Below, in pieces: positions 689-6,166 of a stretch of DNA of 6,807 nucleotides. Under the pieces are notes generated by a model, which was not told where the DNA came from, searched no databases, and worked only from the letters and a program-made list of their open reading frames with translations. Made by a program: the position numbers and the translations under genes. This DNA comes from Nitrospirales bacterium (lineage in GTDB: Bacteria; Nitrospirota; Nitrospiria; Nitrospirales; UBA8639): positions 1 to 6,807 of the forward strand of contig BQIY01000117.1 of the NCBI GenBank assembly GCA_021604265.1, given 5' to 3'. Each line of letters starts with the position of its first letter. Position 1 is the stretch's first letter.

Positions 689-1027
689 TCAAGCCGATTC
701 AATCACGGCGGCAGGAGCGGCGGTCATTACGGCTTGAATACTTTTTTTCATCGATGGTTTCGAGGCATACATTTCGCTCTTACCGATCGGCTGCATATTC
801 TTGGCAATCAAGACAAAATAGTGTTTTCCGTTTTTGGCAACCTTCTCTTCGTATTGCTTCGCAAGCTTCGCGTTGGCCTTGACTGATGTAATGGCCCGAC
901 GAGCGCCCGATGGTGAATGATAACCTTGGCTCGCCAGGATAATTTCGCCGCTTCGCGCTTTTAAGCGAAAATACGCTTTTCCATTCTTCCCCTTAAACAC
1001 TTCAAACTTCGGGTGCTTCATAGCCAT
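689..1027 (-). CDS. YegP-type protein with two DUF1508 repeats
   Basis: A 112-residue cytosolic, lysine-rich protein made of two copies of the DUF1508 fold, as in E. coli YegP. Repeat 1 spans about residues 7-53 (KFEVFKGKNGKAYFRL, then GYHSPSGARRAITSVKANA). Repeat 2 spans about 59-105 (YEEKVAKNGKHYFVLIA, then MYASKPSMKKSIQAV). Each repeat has the typical K-N-G-K-x-Y-F strand followed by a helix. In repeat 2 the usual SVKxNA ending has drifted to AVMTAA. The length matches the two-repeat form, and an Ala-rich tail follows. The start at 1027 is fixed by a near-perfect ribosome site, AAAGGAGG, seven bases upstream; a second ATG two codons in is less well spaced. The biochemical function of the family is not established. 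The gene is transcribed divergently from the reductase-ligase operon. I see no T-tract terminator after it. Confidence 0.9.
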   Translation of the reverse strand: MAMKHPKFEVFKGKNGKAYFRLKARSGEIILASQGYHSPSGARRAITSVKANAKLAKQYEEKVAKNGKHYFVLIAKNMQPIGKSEMYASKPSMKKSIQAVMTAAPAAVIESA

Positions 1028-1283: not shown

Positions 1284-2126
1284 ATGAGTGTCTACACAGC
1301 CTATAATGATGTCGCGGTTCCATCGTTCATATATGGAACCGCGTGGAAAAAAGATGCCACGGCTCAACTGGTGCAGTTAGCCGTGAGATCAGGTTTTACG
1401 GCGATTGATACCGCCAATCAGATTATTCATTATCAGGAGGCCTTAGTGGGTGACGCCTTGTTGGCGTTAGCCGGGCAAGGAGTCAAACGTGAGACGCTCT
1501 TCTTGCAAACGAAATTTACGCCTGTTGGCGGACAGGATCATCGAACACCCTATGATGTCTCTGCTGATATCACCACACAGGTCGCACAATCCTTTCAGAG
1601 TTCGTTAGAACATCTGCATACGGAGTATGTCGATTCGTATGTCTTGCATGGACCCTATTCCCGGGGAGGGTTAGGAGCGGACGATTGGGAAGTCTGGGCA
1701 GCTATTGAAGGCATCTACCAATCAGGAAAAGCCAAAATGATTGGTGTGAGCAATGTGAATGCCGGACAGCTTCGTCTGCTTTGCGAGAAATCTAAGGTCA
1801 AACCCATGGTCGTGCAGAATCGATGTTATGCCGTATTGGGCTGGGATAAAGAAGTCCGAGATATCTGTAACACTCACCAGATCATCTACCAAGGGTTTTC
1901 GTTATTAACGGCGAATCAGGATCTGTGGGCCGATCCTCTGATTCGTGCCATCGCAGAGCGGGTTGAAGCTGGTCTTGCGCAAGTGATATTTCGATTCGCG
2001 CAGCAAATTGGCATGCTTCCCTTGACCGGCACGACGAATCAGGAACACATGAAAGAGGATCTCGACATCGGGCGGTTTACTCTCTCACCAGAGGAAATAC
2101 AGACTATCGAACAGATTGCTGTTTGA
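1284..2126 (+). CDS. Aldo/keto reductase (NAD(P)H-dependent oxidoreductase)
   Basis: A 280-residue cytosolic oxidoreductase of the aldo/keto reductase superfamily, a single (beta/alpha)8 barrel that reduces aldehydes or ketones with NAD(P)H. The catalytic tetrad can be placed: Asp42 in AIDTANQ, Tyr50 in HYQEALVG, Lys77 in LQTKF and His122 in YVLHGPY. Other family marks are FIYGTAWK (16-23), IGVSNVNAGQL (153-163, the substrate-side GVSN strand), VQNRCY (177-182) and LPLTGTT (245-251), the cofactor loop. The usual Lys of an IPKS-type loop is Leu247, and the usual Arg further on appears to be His255, so phosphate recognition of NADPH may be altered. The Asp-Tyr gap is three residues longer than in classical members, suggesting a divergent subfamily. 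The frame is open back to an ATG at 1197, but that start lacks a ribosome site and adds 29 residues unlike the family. The stop overlaps the ligase start. The substrate cannot be predicted. Confidence 0.92.
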   Translation: MSVYTAYNDVAVPSFIYGTAWKKDATAQLVQLAVRSGFTAIDTANQIIHYQEALVGDALLALAGQGVKRETLFLQTKFTPVGGQDHRTPYDVSADITTQVAQSFQSSLEHLHTEYVDSYVLHGPYSRGGLGADDWEVWAAIEGIYQSGKAKMIGVSNVNAGQLRLLCEKSKVKPMVVQNRCYAVLGWDKEVRDICNTHQIIYQGFSLLTANQDLWADPLIRAIAERVEAGLAQVIFRFAQQIGMLPLTGTTNQEHMKEDLDIGRFTLSPEEIQTIEQIAV

Positions 2127-3028
2127 TGATCCAAGCGGCTTCGAATCGTATGAGGCATCTCTCTCATTGTGCTCGTTTGGAACTGAATGCCTGTCTATCG
2201 TTGACGCTACTCTTCGTTGGTGTTGTGCTCTGGTCAGTCGCAGAGGCCAAGGATAAGCCGGCGGTGATGTTGGCTGAGGTGTATCAGCCAGGTATTGACG
2301 TCAGCCAGTATTGGGTGAGTGAAAAACTCGATGGGGTGCGAGCTCGCTGGGATGGTCATCGCCTCATTTCACGAGGCGGACACGCATTTGCCGCTCCCAC
2401 CTGGTTTACTGCCGGTCTTCCGAATATCTCGTTGGATGGCGAGCTCTGGATTGCGCGAGGACGATATGAAGAGACCTCTTCAATTGTGAGAAAGCTCACA
2501 CCTCATGAAGGGTGGCGAGATATTCGGTTGATGCTGTTTGATCTGCCCGAACATGACGGGACCTTTGATCAGCGAGTGAGTGCGATGAAGCGTTTGGTCG
2601 AGCACACGCATTCCCCGTTTCTCGTCATGATTGAGCAGCAAACGATACAGAATGAAGAAGAATTACAACAGCGGCTAACCGAAGTTCTTGACCAAGGCGG
2701 AGAAGGCTTGATGCTTCATCGAAAGACGGCTCGGTATGCGAGTGGTCGAACGCATGATGTGCTGAAGCTGAAGCCGTTTATGGATGCCGAAGCGACGGTG
2801 ATTGGATATCGGCCGGGCAAAGGTCAGTTTGCTGGACAAGTCGGATCACTCAAAGTCCGTACTGATGAAGGGGTAGAGTTGTATATTGGCAGCGGGCTCT
2901 CGAATGCACAACGACGTCATCCGCCGCCTGTGCAAAGCCGGATTACGTTTCGCTATCAAGGGTTGACGAAAAATGGTGTGCCCCGATTTCCGGTATTTTT
3001 GCGGATCCGCCATGAACAACCGGAATAA
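2126..3028 (+). CDS. Exported ATP-dependent DNA ligase, LigE type
   Basis: A 300-residue protein that seals nicks in duplex DNA using ATP. A hydrophobic segment (about 23-38, LSLTLLFVGVVLWSVA) ends in an A-E-A box, so cleavage is likely before Lys42 and the mature ligase (about 259 residues) should be periplasmic. Nucleotidyltransferase motifs run in order: I, SEKLDGVR with the adenylated Lys67; Ia, SRGG at 82-85; LDGELW at 103-108; III, LMLFDLP at 135-141; IV, GGEGLMLHR at 191-199; V, LKLKP at 213-217. A C-terminal OB domain follows (about 218-300; GYRPGKGQFAGQVGSL, IGSGLS, GLTKNGVPRFPVF). There is no helical DNA-binding domain or zinc finger, as expected for the minimal LigE form. The start ATG shares its A with the reductase stop (TGATG), implying coupling. 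A TTG at 2123 and an ATG at 2150 are alternatives; the latter gives a shorter leader. No good ribosome site is seen. Confidence 0.93.
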   Translation: MIQAASNRMRHLSHCARLELNACLSLTLLFVGVVLWSVAEAKDKPAVMLAEVYQPGIDVSQYWVSEKLDGVRARWDGHRLISRGGHAFAAPTWFTAGLPNISLDGELWIARGRYEETSSIVRKLTPHEGWRDIRLMLFDLPEHDGTFDQRVSAMKRLVEHTHSPFLVMIEQQTIQNEEELQQRLTEVLDQGGEGLMLHRKTARYASGRTHDVLKLKPFMDAEATVIGYRPGKGQFAGQVGSLKVRTDEGVELYIGSGLSNAQRRHPPPVQSRITFRYQGLTKNGVPRFPVFLRIRHEQPE

Positions 3029-3057: not shown

Positions 3058-3720
3058 TTAATAGCCTTTCCGCTGTATGTGCCGATTGGTGAGAGTCACG
3101 TTGTCCCGCTCGCATGTCCGTGTGAGCAATCGATGATGGCAAGCTGAATCGGTTGCCGCATCCAGGTGCATTTGCTGACAAAGCTGTATTGTGTAAATCA
3201 GTGAGACGGCAGTTTTGATTAAGGCTAATCCGTAATCATAGTGATCGCTTTCTTCCTGGGACAGTCGAGTTCCACTCAAGACTGTGATCGTTTCTACACT
3301 AAATGACGTAGACTTCCACTCCGGCCGTTGTAACTTCAAGAGGCCAGTGGGGTCGGCCGGTTTCGTACTTCTTCCTTGAGAGTCCTGGGCAAATGTCACC
3401 AGTCCGCGCTGAAATTGCTGATTGTGGGTAATTGCTTCATGAAAAGACAACCGCCACAGTTGGTCAGCTAAGTCTCGGTCGACCGCTGCGACAACGTTCA
3501 GGCTCATTGTTCCGCTTACTGAATGTCCCTGCACAATTCGGCCGGCGTTCAATAGTTCCGGATAGTCATCGCCCATTCGGTCCGGGAACGCGAGTGTTCC
3601 CATCAGGGGCGACAGTTGCAAAGCCATGTAGTCTCGAAAGTGGACTTGCTGAAACTCCTTCAATAATTGATGAAGCGTACGTTCGTGACAAAGATGGAAA
3701 GGATAAAAAAGCGCGTTCAA
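3058..3720 (-). CDS. Unrecognised 220-residue protein, TTG start, coupled to the Cys-repeat gene
   Basis: I do not recognise a named family. The protein has no signal peptide; one hydrophobic stretch (about 165-180, LALIKTAVSLIYTIQL) looks more like a buried helix than a membrane anchor. The N-terminus is distinctive: FYPFHLCHERTLHQLL (5-20) then HFRDYMALQLSP (27-38) and FPDRMGDDYPELLNAGRIVQGHSVSG (two adjoining runs within 45-70). His9, Cys11 and His12 together, and Cys194, His195, His196 and Cys203 near the end, could bind a metal. The ORF starts with TTG, whose last two bases overlap the TGA stop of the upstream gene (TTGA), so translation is probably coupled; no ribosome site is visible. 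The next ATG is residue 32 and would remove the most distinctive part. Coding is supported by length, composition and the tight overlap. Function is unknown; context suggests a role with the exported partner. Confidence 0.75.
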   Translation of the reverse strand: MNALFYPFHLCHERTLHQLLKEFQQVHFRDYMALQLSPLMGTLAFPDRMGDDYPELLNAGRIVQGHSVSGTMSLNVVAAVDRDLADQLWRLSFHEAITHNQQFQRGLVTFAQDSQGRSTKPADPTGLLKLQRPEWKSTSFSVETITVLSGTRLSQEESDHYDYGLALIKTAVSLIYTIQLCQQMHLDAATDSACHHRLLTRTCERDNVTLTNRHIQRKGY

Positions 3721-5033
3721 GATACAGACGGCATACGGTTGAACAACGTTGAAGAGTGATCGAGACTAAGGCGGGCGCCTTGACGGCAGTCTTGAATATA
3801 TTTGGTTTCTGACCGAGCGCAGGCTTGAGTGCGCTGTTGGGGTTCTGCATAGAGGACGAGCAGTTCTTCTCCTATGGCGTTGTGGCAATCCTGTTTATGT
3901 TGCTTGGGCGTTTGTCGACAAAATTCAAAGGCGTTGTCTGAGGCTCGCCCGGAAACATTCAGGAAATTCTTGACGACACCAATGAAACAACGGCTTTGAT
4001 GCGCGGCCGTTCCCAACTGACAAAGACGAATCGACTGATCGATATTTCGCAGGGTGTGACCGGATATGTCTCGTCCCATACTTTGGTAACAGGTCGGCTT
4101 CATGCCTTCTGGCGCGGTATCGCATAGGCCAAACGCCTTGGCAAAATCATACTGCGTCAGGTGCAATATAATAGAGGTTTGCATCATATAACATTCCCGC
4201 AAATACTTCTCGTTGAGTGCAGAGCATGGATACAAAGGGTCCTTCGGGTCGACGAGTTTGGTCTTGTGGTGCTGAGCCTCATTGCCATGATGTCCGCTAT
4301 GTTGTTCCGAACCATTAATGCCCGTGACCACGCCTTCCATGAAGACTCCACCGTAACAGGATTGTTGATCCCAAGCCGTGTTTAACGTGTCGCACAGGGC
4401 TAACGCGTGTTTGATGTCATGATTGAGATGCATGGTCAGGCCATGTCCTAAACCATGAAAGCAATTGAAGTATGCGAATCGGCCTTTTTCTTTCTCGAGT
4501 TTTGCACTGCAGATGACGGCGACATCCTCTGATTGAATACGCGGTTTACTGGTGAGATAGGCTTCCAGTGCACCATGATAACAGCCTGATTGGTGGGCGG
4601 GCGTGCATTGGGTCATCACTGTCGTGACGTCTTTAAGGTGGTGATAGGACATGCGTCCCACATAATGGGTGAGATTATGGGCTTCTCGTAAAGCGGCCTG
4701 ATCCTTCTCGACAATTTCTTCGATCAAATGAAGCGCCTGTTCTGTTCCCTGTGTTGTTAAGGCGGTTTTTAATTTCTTTTTGTAGCAGGGAATATTACCC
4801 TGACAGGTATCAGGAGGAGGTGTGGGTGAATCTGCTGGCTGTTGTGGTTGAGGCGTAATATGAAGGTGTTTCGGCTGCGCTGAGGAATCAGCTTGTTCTT
4901 TAATGTCCGTCGCGTGACTTGTTGCTATGTGAGGTAGCATGCTCCCTATGGACAAGAGTACTCCGAGGCACCATGCCAGCCGTCGAGGCCAATCACTGAT
5001 TGATTGATTGCTTCTGCTTCTTTTTGAGCTCAT
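3717..5033 (-). CDS. Exported Cys/His-rich protein with tandem 34-residue CX10C repeats
   Basis: A 438-residue protein I cannot assign to a named family. Two Args (18-19) precede a hydrophobic segment (about 20-37), and an A-T-S-H-A stretch (37-41) suggests Sec export with cleavage near residue 41. A Pro/Gln-rich linker (about 54-75) follows. From there the protein is helical with paired cysteines: 143/151, 175/191, 214/226, then 270/281, 304/315, 338/349, 372/383 and 405/416. The last five pairs are each CX10C, and pairs begin 34, 34, 34 and 33 residues apart, like TPR- or Sel1-sized helical hairpins stapled by disulfides. Early units have CYHGALEAYL (151-160), CFHGLGHGL (191-199) and CYGGVFMEG (226-234). 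A His-rich insert occupies 242-257. There is no CXXCH haem motif. The start is the ATG at 5033 without an obvious ribosome site. It is the first gene of a two-gene operon. Binding, scaffold or enzyme roles are all open. Confidence 0.85.
   Translation of the reverse strand: MSSKRSRSNQSISDWPRRLAWCLGVLLSIGSMLPHIATSHATDIKEQADSSAQPKHLHITPQPQQPADSPTPPPDTCQGNIPCYKKKLKTALTTQGTEQALHLIEEIVEKDQAALREAHNLTHYVGRMSYHHLKDVTTVMTQCTPAHQSGCYHGALEAYLTSKPRIQSEDVAVICSAKLEKEKGRFAYFNCFHGLGHGLTMHLNHDIKHALALCDTLNTAWDQQSCYGGVFMEGVVTGINGSEQHSGHHGNEAQHHKTKLVDPKDPLYPCSALNEKYLRECYMMQTSIILHLTQYDFAKAFGLCDTAPEGMKPTCYQSMGRDISGHTLRNIDQSIRLCQLGTAAHQSRCFIGVVKNFLNVSGRASDNAFEFCRQTPKQHKQDCHNAIGEELLVLYAEPQQRTQACARSETKYIQDCRQGARLSLDHSSTLFNRMPSVS
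3780..4226 (-). repeat. Five tandem protein repeats with CX10C, period about 34 residues
   Basis: This part of the Cys-repeat gene encodes residues 270-418. Units start CSALNEKYLREC, CDTAPEGMKPTC, CQLGTAAHQSRC, CRQTPKQHKQDC and CARSETKYIQDC. Start-to-start spacing is 34, 34, 34 and 33 residues. Outside the cysteines the units share little identity, so this is an old protein-level repeat, not a recent DNA duplication. Less regular units precede it (Cys pairs at residues 143, 175 and 214). Confidence 0.85.
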
Positions 5034-5339: not shown

Positions 5340-5696
5340 ATGCTGAAACGACTATTAACGAAAATGCTCTTGATCTTGGCTGCATCGATGTTTTTGAGCG
5401 GGTGTCTGTATACGGATATTCAGGTGCCGAGAGCGTATCGTTCGGCCAGTCCGATTGATGTCAAAGCCAAGACTACGGATAAAGTGGTGGTCGGGGAAAG
5501 CTGTAACCGATCCGTACTCTTCTTAGTGGCCTGGGGTAATGGGGGATATGTCGGGGCCATTAACAATGCCTTGGCCGACGAACCAACAGGCTCGATTCTC
5601 TACGATGTGCATGTCGATGTTAAAGCTACAGTCTATGTATTCGGCCTGTATGCTCAGACATGTACGGTCGTGACAGGAAAAGTGGGGTCGGTATGA
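5340..5696 (+). CDS. TRL-like family lipoprotein, first of a tandem pair
   Basis: A 118-residue envelope lipoprotein. The leader is basic then hydrophobic (MLKRLLTKMLLILAASMF) and ends in the lipobox L-S-G-C, so Cys22 should be the lipidated first residue of the mature protein. The +2 residue is Leu, not Asp, which in proteobacterial rules would favour the outer membrane. The mature part fits the TRL-like pattern: an early G-E-S-C (51-54 or so), a short hydrophobic strand VLFLVAWGNGG, a helix with AINNAL, then YDVHVDV and a second conserved Cys in AQTCTVVTGK. Two Cys at these places could form a disulfide in the periplasm. TRL stands for tRNA-associated locus, but no tRNA gene is seen here and the function of the family is unknown. 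The stop overlaps the start of a longer relative by 4 bases (ATGA), so the two are co-translated. Confidence 0.85.
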   Translation: MLKRLLTKMLLILAASMFLSGCLYTDIQVPRAYRSASPIDVKAKTTDKVVVGESCNRSVLFLVAWGNGGYVGAINNALADEPTGSILYDVHVDVKATVYVFGLYAQTCTVVTGKVGSV

Positions 5697-6166
5697 AAAC
5701 TGTTCTCATGCTGATGGTCGTTTGTGTTCTTGGCTATGGTTGTGCCCCGTCACAAAGATGGGCGTATGAAGCTCGTCCTGGTCTGATTTTTGTCGGGGGA
5801 TTTGTGTTGTATTATGATTCTGAAGCCCCGCTGTCCTATCAGGCCTTGACGCCGCATGAGATTCCCGACAACACGGTTCCGGTAGGAGAAGTTTTGGGTG
5901 ATAGCTGTCAGCATGGGCTCTCCATTCCCATTATATTTTCTGCGACAGATCGAACGAGTGTTTCTGGAGCAAATGGGGACGGGAGTTATAAGAAAGCCCT
6001 GTTGAATATCAGAGAAAAGCATCCAGGACTTATCGGTTTATATGACATCAAAGTGGATGTGCATCAGTGGTCAATTTTGACCTATAGCCGGGAATGCACG
6101 GTTGTCGTGGCTCAAGGGTTTACGCGACCGGGGTTGGAAGGGGCAATGCAATTGTCAGCAAAATGA
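5693..6166 (+). CDS. TRL-like family probable lipoprotein, second of a tandem pair
   Basis: A 157-residue relative of the protein encoded just upstream. The leader MKTVLMLMVVCVLGYGC has a hydrophobic core and a Cys at 17. The lipobox G-Y-G-C is imperfect, so lipidation is likely but not certain. The mature part repeats the pattern of its neighbour: G-E-V-L-G-D-S-C in place of G-E-S-C, a Gly-rich turn with a helix (SYKKALLNI), then YDIKVDVH and ECTVVVAQGF matching YDVHVDV and TCTVVTGK. It differs by extra residues at both ends and a longer central loop. The start at 5693 is chosen because it gives the leader and an ATGA overlap with the previous stop. The frame is open further up, to 5660, but that would destroy the leader. 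A GGGG run five bases upstream may act as a ribosome site. Function is unknown; co-expression and similarity suggest paired envelope roles. Confidence 0.82.
   Translation: MKTVLMLMVVCVLGYGCAPSQRWAYEARPGLIFVGGFVLYYDSEAPLSYQALTPHEIPDNTVPVGEVLGDSCQHGLSIPIIFSATDRTSVSGANGDGSYKKALLNIREKHPGLIGLYDIKVDVHQWSILTYSRECTVVVAQGFTRPGLEGAMQLSAK

Follow-up and report, generated by a model that had tools for sequence, protein, structure and literature searches.

A stretch of 6,807 nucleotides from a Nitrospirales bacterium, referred to here as the window, carries on its minus strand a gene for a cysteine-rich protein with an export-type start. From the sequence alone, the protein had been read as a row of two-helix hairpins, each closed by one disulfide outside the cytoplasm, and as a disulfide-stapled solenoid of an undescribed kind. 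Is this architecture kept among the relatives of the protein, is it new, and what could such a protein do?

The focal gene and its parts

Translation of the window gives a minus-strand ORF (5033..3717) of 438 aa with 19 cysteines. The ORF is real: alignments with relatives that range in identity from 90% to ~30% extend over its length. Its parts, and an overlapping ORF, are listed below with the basis of each in brackets.

3717..5033, minus strand: CDS, predicted exported disulfide-stapled solenoid protein, 438 aa (translation, relatives)
4908..5033, minus strand: putative signal peptide, residues 1-42 (inspection and one hydrophobic segment)
4806..4907, minus strand: Pro-rich linker, residues 43-76 (sequence; pLDDT mostly low)
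3780..4805, minus strand: predicted solenoid domain, residues 77-418, helical all through (AlphaFold2 model and profile comparison)
4785..4805, minus strand: N-terminal cysteine pair C77/C83 (sequence and relatives)
4335..4679, minus strand: candidate metal site, H119, H123, H153, H193, H197 and M232 near-invariant, E233 mostly conserved (alignment of relatives)
4356..4607, minus strand: cysteine pairs 143/151, 175/191 and 214/226 (sequence and conservation)
4239..4316, minus strand: variable His-rich loop, residues 240-265 (alignment of relatives)
3786..4226, minus strand: regular CX10C ladder 270/281, 304/315, 338/349, 372/383 and 405/416 (sequence and conservation)
3058..3720, minus strand: 220-aa ORF whose start overlaps the stop codon of the focal gene (ORF list, family searches, relatives)

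The putative signal peptide has a basic n-region, a single hydrophobic segment and an A-x-A-like end, a cleavage-like site by inspection. This segment was called at a threshold of 1.4, laxer than the 1.6 applied to relatives. The export-type start supports the prediction that the focal protein is exported. In a promoter and terminator scan round the gene, sites were no commoner than in shuffles.

Relatives and their distribution

The window protein gave no significant match in Pfam, NCBIfam, PADLOC or PHROGs, and nothing in these libraries came above cut-off for the solenoid when relatives were included. An aligned set of 56 members, made up of the window protein plus 55 relatives taken from the 120 listed, gave no credible Pfam match. 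A single-sequence search of the PDB matched no chain; with the clade-I profile A1 weak matches only were found, the best being a designed PPR protein (E 0.037). The absence of a recognised motif, reported in the sequence-only reading, thus holds against curated family libraries, and no match to a characterised Cys-rich domain was found.

A database search from the window protein gave 249 relatives, of which the best 120 were listed. With a membrane-fused relative as query, 324 matches were obtained (best 120 listed), some of them labelled Actinobacteria, Chloroflexota or Dehalococcoidia. Genomes from the phylum of Nitrospira defluvii also carry divergent copies; these led to a second clade, for which the search gave 402 further matches, again with the best 120 listed. 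Comparison of clade I with clade II by hhalign gave a probability of 99.8% (E 1.6e-27) at ~21% identity. The best explanation of the focal protein's family is a large unnamed bacterial superfamily of exported alpha-solenoids, with members labelled Nitrospirota, Gemmatimonadota, Binatota, Actinomycetota, Chloroflexota and Acidobacteriota. The relatives listed are called hypothetical wherever a name was shown, save one TPR-fusion protein, and precomputed Pfam domains among them are confined to proteins that have an extra TPR portion. TPR domains are present in 6 of the 120 listed clade-II proteins and lie ahead of the solenoid in all four examined. No description of the family was recognised from titles and abstracts of the open-access literature, subscription journals being outside this scope; a single one of the four motif strings tried is found there, judging by titles in connection with kininogen or serum peptides/proteins.

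The named loci (80 kept of 138) come mostly from Nitrospira and other Nitrospirales, Binatia or Binatota, and Gemmatimonadota, with single loci labelled Gammaproteobacteria, Desulfurellaceae and Nitrosospira. Among sampled genomes, clade-I profile A1 matched in 25 of 295 from the phylum of G001 (Nitrospira defluvii); profile A2 matched in 47 of 200 from the phylum of G002 (a Gemmatimonadetes genome) and in 1 of 198 from that of G003, the query genome itself. The clade-II profile matched in 37/395, 66/298 and 1/398 in the phyla of G001, G002 and G795 respectively; many of its matches are clade-I genes at a distance, and the single one in the G795 phylum is the query genome itself. From these low fractions, the gene is patchy and not universal.

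At least one hydrophobic N-terminal segment was found in 147/193 clade-I and 80/120 clade-II database proteins, and 45 of the 193 clade-I relatives have at least two in front. From residue 100 onward, only one of 313 proteins has such a segment. A lipobox-like motif is seen in 18/194 clade-I and 19/123 clade-II proteins by a loose pattern, false ones included. In P0023, P0042, P0054, P0083, P0136 and P0139 the N-terminal hydrophobic segments belong to no known family. In the similar protein P0159, this domain has further matches in proteins encoded on four Mycolicibacterium plasmids; the match stops where the membrane domain fused to some relatives ends, and metal ATPases lie near this domain in one of the three plasmid regions examined.

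Spacing and conservation of the cysteines

Cysteines of the window protein are at positions 22, 77, 83, 143, 151, 175, 191, 214, 226, 270, 281, 304, 315, 338, 349, 372, 383, 405 and 416. Every position given earlier for the pairs, regular and less regular, agrees with the translation. The constant CX10C, with unit starts 34, 34, 34 and 33 residues apart, is confirmed and lies far above chance: in 100,000 shuffles of residues 26-438, at least five CX10C pairs occurred in 34, and at least four pairs, each with the next pair 33 or 34 residues on, occurred in none. C77/C83 form a further pair ahead of the array, absent from the sequence-only reading. When residues 112-240 were compared with residues 265-418 as profiles, they matched with a probability of 86% (E 5e-6); the pairs from 143 to 226 therefore look like units of the regular repeat. 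It is in these less regular units that the near-invariant residues are mostly found.

At least three consecutive CX10C pairs at exactly 34 residues are present in 190 of 194 clade-I proteins, a count that excludes the tandem protein P0016, and at least two at 33-35 residues in 113 of 120 clade-II database proteins. P0016 is 729 aa long, with two solenoid domains in tandem. The array cysteines other than C77/C83 are found in nearly all clade-I proteins. C77 and C83 are both kept in 144/194 of them, and the position is Cys-free in 50/194. An extra pair, one cysteine before H119 and one between 143 and 151, occurs together in 123/123 clade-II sequences and in L091 and L092; neither cysteine is present in 194/194 clade-I proteins. 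Losses of whole pairs, counted as sequences and not as independent events and mostly tracking the clade division, include the joint absence of 143/151 in three proteins and the absence of 405/416 from clade II. Broken pairs were also seen, with the loss of C143 alone in P0005, of C151 alone in P0243 and of C349 alone in P0302. In P0038 C416 alone falls in a gap, L091 has C304 without C315, and P0021 has gaps at 349, 372 and 383 with C338 retained, perhaps through misalignment.

Alignment of homologues, which had been suggested as a check on invariance, thus finds the cysteines nearly invariant and the pairs mostly kept or lost together, with some broken. As to the proposal of one disulfide per unit, near-invariant cysteines and mostly pairwise loss support the type of pairing; from sequence, model topology and co-loss we infer the closure itself.

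Predicted fold

AlphaFold2 predicted an all-helical solenoid for the window protein, with a mean pLDDT of 85.7 and values of at least 90 at 313 of 437 residues (numbering in this model is that of the protein minus one). A fold of matching type was predicted for clade II, with a mean pLDDT of 90.0. The two models were built from alignments of 56 rows, chosen by the analyst, and 48 rows respectively, with no row in common. In the regular region of the window-protein model, helices of ~18 and ~8 residues alternate. The first cysteine of each pair is at or near the end of the short helix and the second ~7 residues into the following long helix, so that each regular pair in the models spans the turn between the two. 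The two-helix hairpins proposed earlier are supported by these two predictions from disjoint alignments, and the general fold class would be that of an alpha/alpha hairpin solenoid.

Among the matches listed in structural searches, generic helical repeats (TPR, PPR, ARM, proteasome chains) predominated and none was convincing; with Foldseek, neither model had a match that reached E 0.001. Deoxyhypusine hydroxylase, Hcp and COA7 are not among the matches listed, which has no exclusion value.

A conserved histidine/methionine signature

Conservation was measured in an alignment of 319 sequences, comprising the window protein, 313 database proteins and five distant copies. The database proteins were drawn from the best 120 of 249, of 324 and of 402 matches, and remoter relatives without the His site, beyond these best-120 lists, could be absent from the set. 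H153 is conserved in 100% of the sequences, H123 and H197 in 99.7%, H193 in 99.4% and H119 in 99.1%; M232 is conserved in 99.7%, P269 in 98.4% and E233 in 94.7%. Besides Cys and Gly, the columns conserved at 97% or more are the five His, M232 and P269, and no others. Given the composition, seven such residues would include five or more His with a chance of ~2e-5. One or two of the five His are absent in 6/319 sequences, and E233 is replaced in 17/319.

In both models, H119/H123, H153, H193/H197 and M232 lie on four successive long helices. The His and Met residues are at +2 and +6 from the second cysteine of their unit, or in the first unit from the equivalent position. The resulting signature is HxxxH - HG - HGxGH - ME. 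H153, H193 and H197 fall in the units that the sequence-only reading had termed less regular, where the signature was missed. A His-rich loop with at least three His is present in 168/194 clade-I proteins as against 1/123 in clade II.

Gene neighbourhood

The focal gene was called at 75 of the 80 named loci. Neighbours at these loci were clustered and only representatives of the top clusters were examined by eye, so that single metal genes may be overlooked; the neighbourhoods of distant copies and further loci were examined by eye. No neighbour cluster among those shown is common to Nitrospira and Gemmatimonadota. The larger clusters are each confined to one clade, and one of them unites eight Binatia loci with one other. 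Gene context was rejected as a guide to function, as the neighbours give no consistent signal.

Metal-related neighbours were seen at three places only. On a Kitasatospora plasmid, a Caa3_CtaG gene adjoins the relative, and genes for CcsB, CopC and a CopY-type regulator lie within ~9 kb. At L092 a cupredoxin gene is separated by one gene, and at L128 ZnuA, ABC-3 and ABC genes are on the opposite strand. L164 carries a clade-II-like gene (7000-8157, plus strand) adjoining, by eye, genes resembling those for an exopolysaccharide chain-length protein and an XrtA-type ATPase.

In the window, the 220-aa ORF (3058-3720, minus strand) has a TTG start in a 4-base overlap (TTGA) with the focal stop codon. 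The same overlap is seen at L001, L002 and L004; at L003 the start is ~80 bases downstream. The ORF is kept at eight loci, three of them apparently the same contig counted again, with 57-87% identity over 220 residues. It matched no known family in library searches and has no obvious signal peptide. Its product looks cytosolic, and it is a possible operon partner in close Nitrospirales relatives.

Other genes of the window were also noted. The ORF at 2123-3028 (plus strand) encodes an ATP-dependent DNA ligase (NF006592, PF14743) with a hydrophobic, by inspection signal-like N-terminus, and may be a Lig E-type ligase of the periplasm. Two small overlapping ORFs, 5340-5696 and 5660-6166 (plus strand), have lipoprotein-like starts and are kept in close relatives; the former is a TRL family protein (PF13146) with weak similarity to the latter. 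At 689-1027 (minus strand), a match to the HVO_2922 family is below cut-off.

Discussion

The five near-unchanging His suggest a metal held outside the cell. An extracytoplasmic metal-binding solenoid is the best reading of the conservation and the models, and on balance the His/Met signature is probably a metal site. Counting against it are the broken cysteine pairs, the few sequences short of one or two His, the near absence of the His-rich loop from clade II, the patchy distribution, the lack of a neighbour cluster common to Nitrospira and Gemmatimonadota, and metal-related genes seen at three places only. In the mechanism proposed, nine cysteine pairs would staple the solenoid. In the regular part each disulfide would bridge from where a short helix ends to the opening turns of the next long helix, and in an oxidising compartment these staples would keep the rod locked. 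H119/H123, H153, H193/H197 and M232, then E233, may line a single stripe of the groove that would bind one or two metal ions. Copper would be the first guess, because of the His and Met ligands and the oxidising compartment, with zinc or iron next. In clade I, metal may be gathered by the His-rich loop, and the protein could then store it, hand it over or use it for catalysis outside the membrane. A hemerythrin-like five-His site was considered and rejected on account of its different fold.

A broader proposal, to which we give slightly less than an even chance, is that the family represents an unnamed superfamily of extracytoplasmic metalloproteins, in which a disulfide-locked solenoid with a five-His/Met site drawn from four successive repeats would be a new type of scaffold for periplasmic metal chemistry.

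The generic helical repeats among the structural matches listed, the solenoid fold predicted for both clades and the TPR domains on 6 of the 120 listed clade-II proteins could also be explained by a protein- or peptide-binding scaffold with a TPR- or Hcp-like groove. In that case the His and Met residues, free of metal, would make up the groove for the ligand or lend stability to the fold. However, five His kept across phyla at ~21% identity are rare for such grooves, and HxxxH occurring twice with a further H in one register is typical of a metal site; we regard this explanation as rather unlikely.

A heme-binding factor that helps to assemble cytochrome oxidase or cytochrome c, with a function resembling that of COA7, is improbable. 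COA7 is a disulfide-stapled solenoid, described as binding heme in a review passage and in the title of a reference given there, the His and Met could serve as axial ligands, and one relative adjoins the Caa3_CtaG gene with CcsB and CopC genes near. However, this neighbour support comes from a single locus, the focal family did not match Sel1 in profile tests, and CXXCH occurs in 0/319 sequences, a count on which a c-type cytochrome was rejected as well.

The 18 conserved cysteines might suggest a thiol-active oxidoreductase or chaperone with cysteines cycling between states, but they include no CXXC-type pair, and their regular ladder and mostly pairwise variation make this very improbable.

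That the protein is an ordinary Sel1 or TPR protein missed by profile libraries, as the similar repeat length and the Hcp-like disulfide topology (PMC3851747) might suggest, can hardly be the case: at E 0.1 the 56 members match neither Sel1 (PF08238) nor TPR in Pfam, the window protein has no TPR profile match in the repeat region, the Sel1 profile finds 7, 4 and 22 matches in G001-G003, always elsewhere than the focal-family loci, and hhalign against six local Sel1 stretches gave a probability of 0.2% (the Sel1-Sel1 control gave 99.9% but is lenient, its halves sharing overlapping stretches).

The cysteine ladder, as a scaffold feature, has precedents. More novel is the unnamed superfamily itself, whose exported solenoid bears a His/Met signature kept with little change. 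This signature renders function testable. Nitrospira are nitrite-oxidising bacteria and part of the global nitrogen cycle; if the extracytoplasmic site binds copper or another metal, the protein would be an unrecognised metal-handling component in these organisms among others.

Comparison with known systems

The repeat subunits of the 26S proteasome regulatory particle matched in the structural searches, which we take to be Rpn2, share 6 and 12% identity with the focal proteins, with scores inside the tool's stated helical-repeat background. Deoxyhypusine hydroxylase, a di-iron enzyme built of HEAT repeats, presumably cytosolic and without a comparable cysteine ladder, has His-Glu motifs, whereas the focal family is His/Met-rich and exported. 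Neither the window protein nor the 56 members matched a HEAT or DOHH profile in Pfam. The iron ligands of deoxyhypusine hydroxylase, His56/His89 and His207/His240, are placed 33 apart, at the HEAT repeat period (PMC3306375), compared with 34 for H119/H153.

To our knowledge, disulfide-stapled helical solenoids have been described from few families only (Hcp, COA7). Of the earlier interpretation, the export, the hairpins, the disulfide-type pairing and the lack of a curated family are supported. Its view of the stapled solenoid as undescribed is not, since Hcp (PMC3851747) and COA7 (PMC6505684) are precedents, and the principle is therefore not new. COA7, of the mitochondrial intermembrane space, is described with five disulfide-stabilised Sel1-like repeats (PMC6505684). 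It resembles the focal family, as predicted here, in its disulfide-stapled helical repeats, oxidising compartment and near-constant Cys-Cys distance. COA7 is, however, a Sel1-repeat protein with five proposed disulfides, whereas in the focal family as many as nine pairs occur and Sel1 is not matched.

The Helicobacter cysteine-rich proteins HcpB and HcpC, built of Sel1-like repeats, share the alpha/alpha solenoid predicted for the focal family. Consecutive repeats of Hcp proteins are described as tethered by a disulfide, from where one ends to where the next begins (PMC3851747); the cysteine positions at helix ends in our model and the co-loss of pairs agree with this tether topology. Unlike Hcp, the focal family is without the Sel1 signature and has CX10C pairs at 34 residues, a near-invariant five-His set and, in the model, long helices of ~18 and short helices of ~8 residues. 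We therefore file it as a family that would work like an Hcp-type scaffold without being a Sel1 member. It would add a second, sequence-unrelated, disulfide-stapled helical solenoid beside Hcp and COA7.
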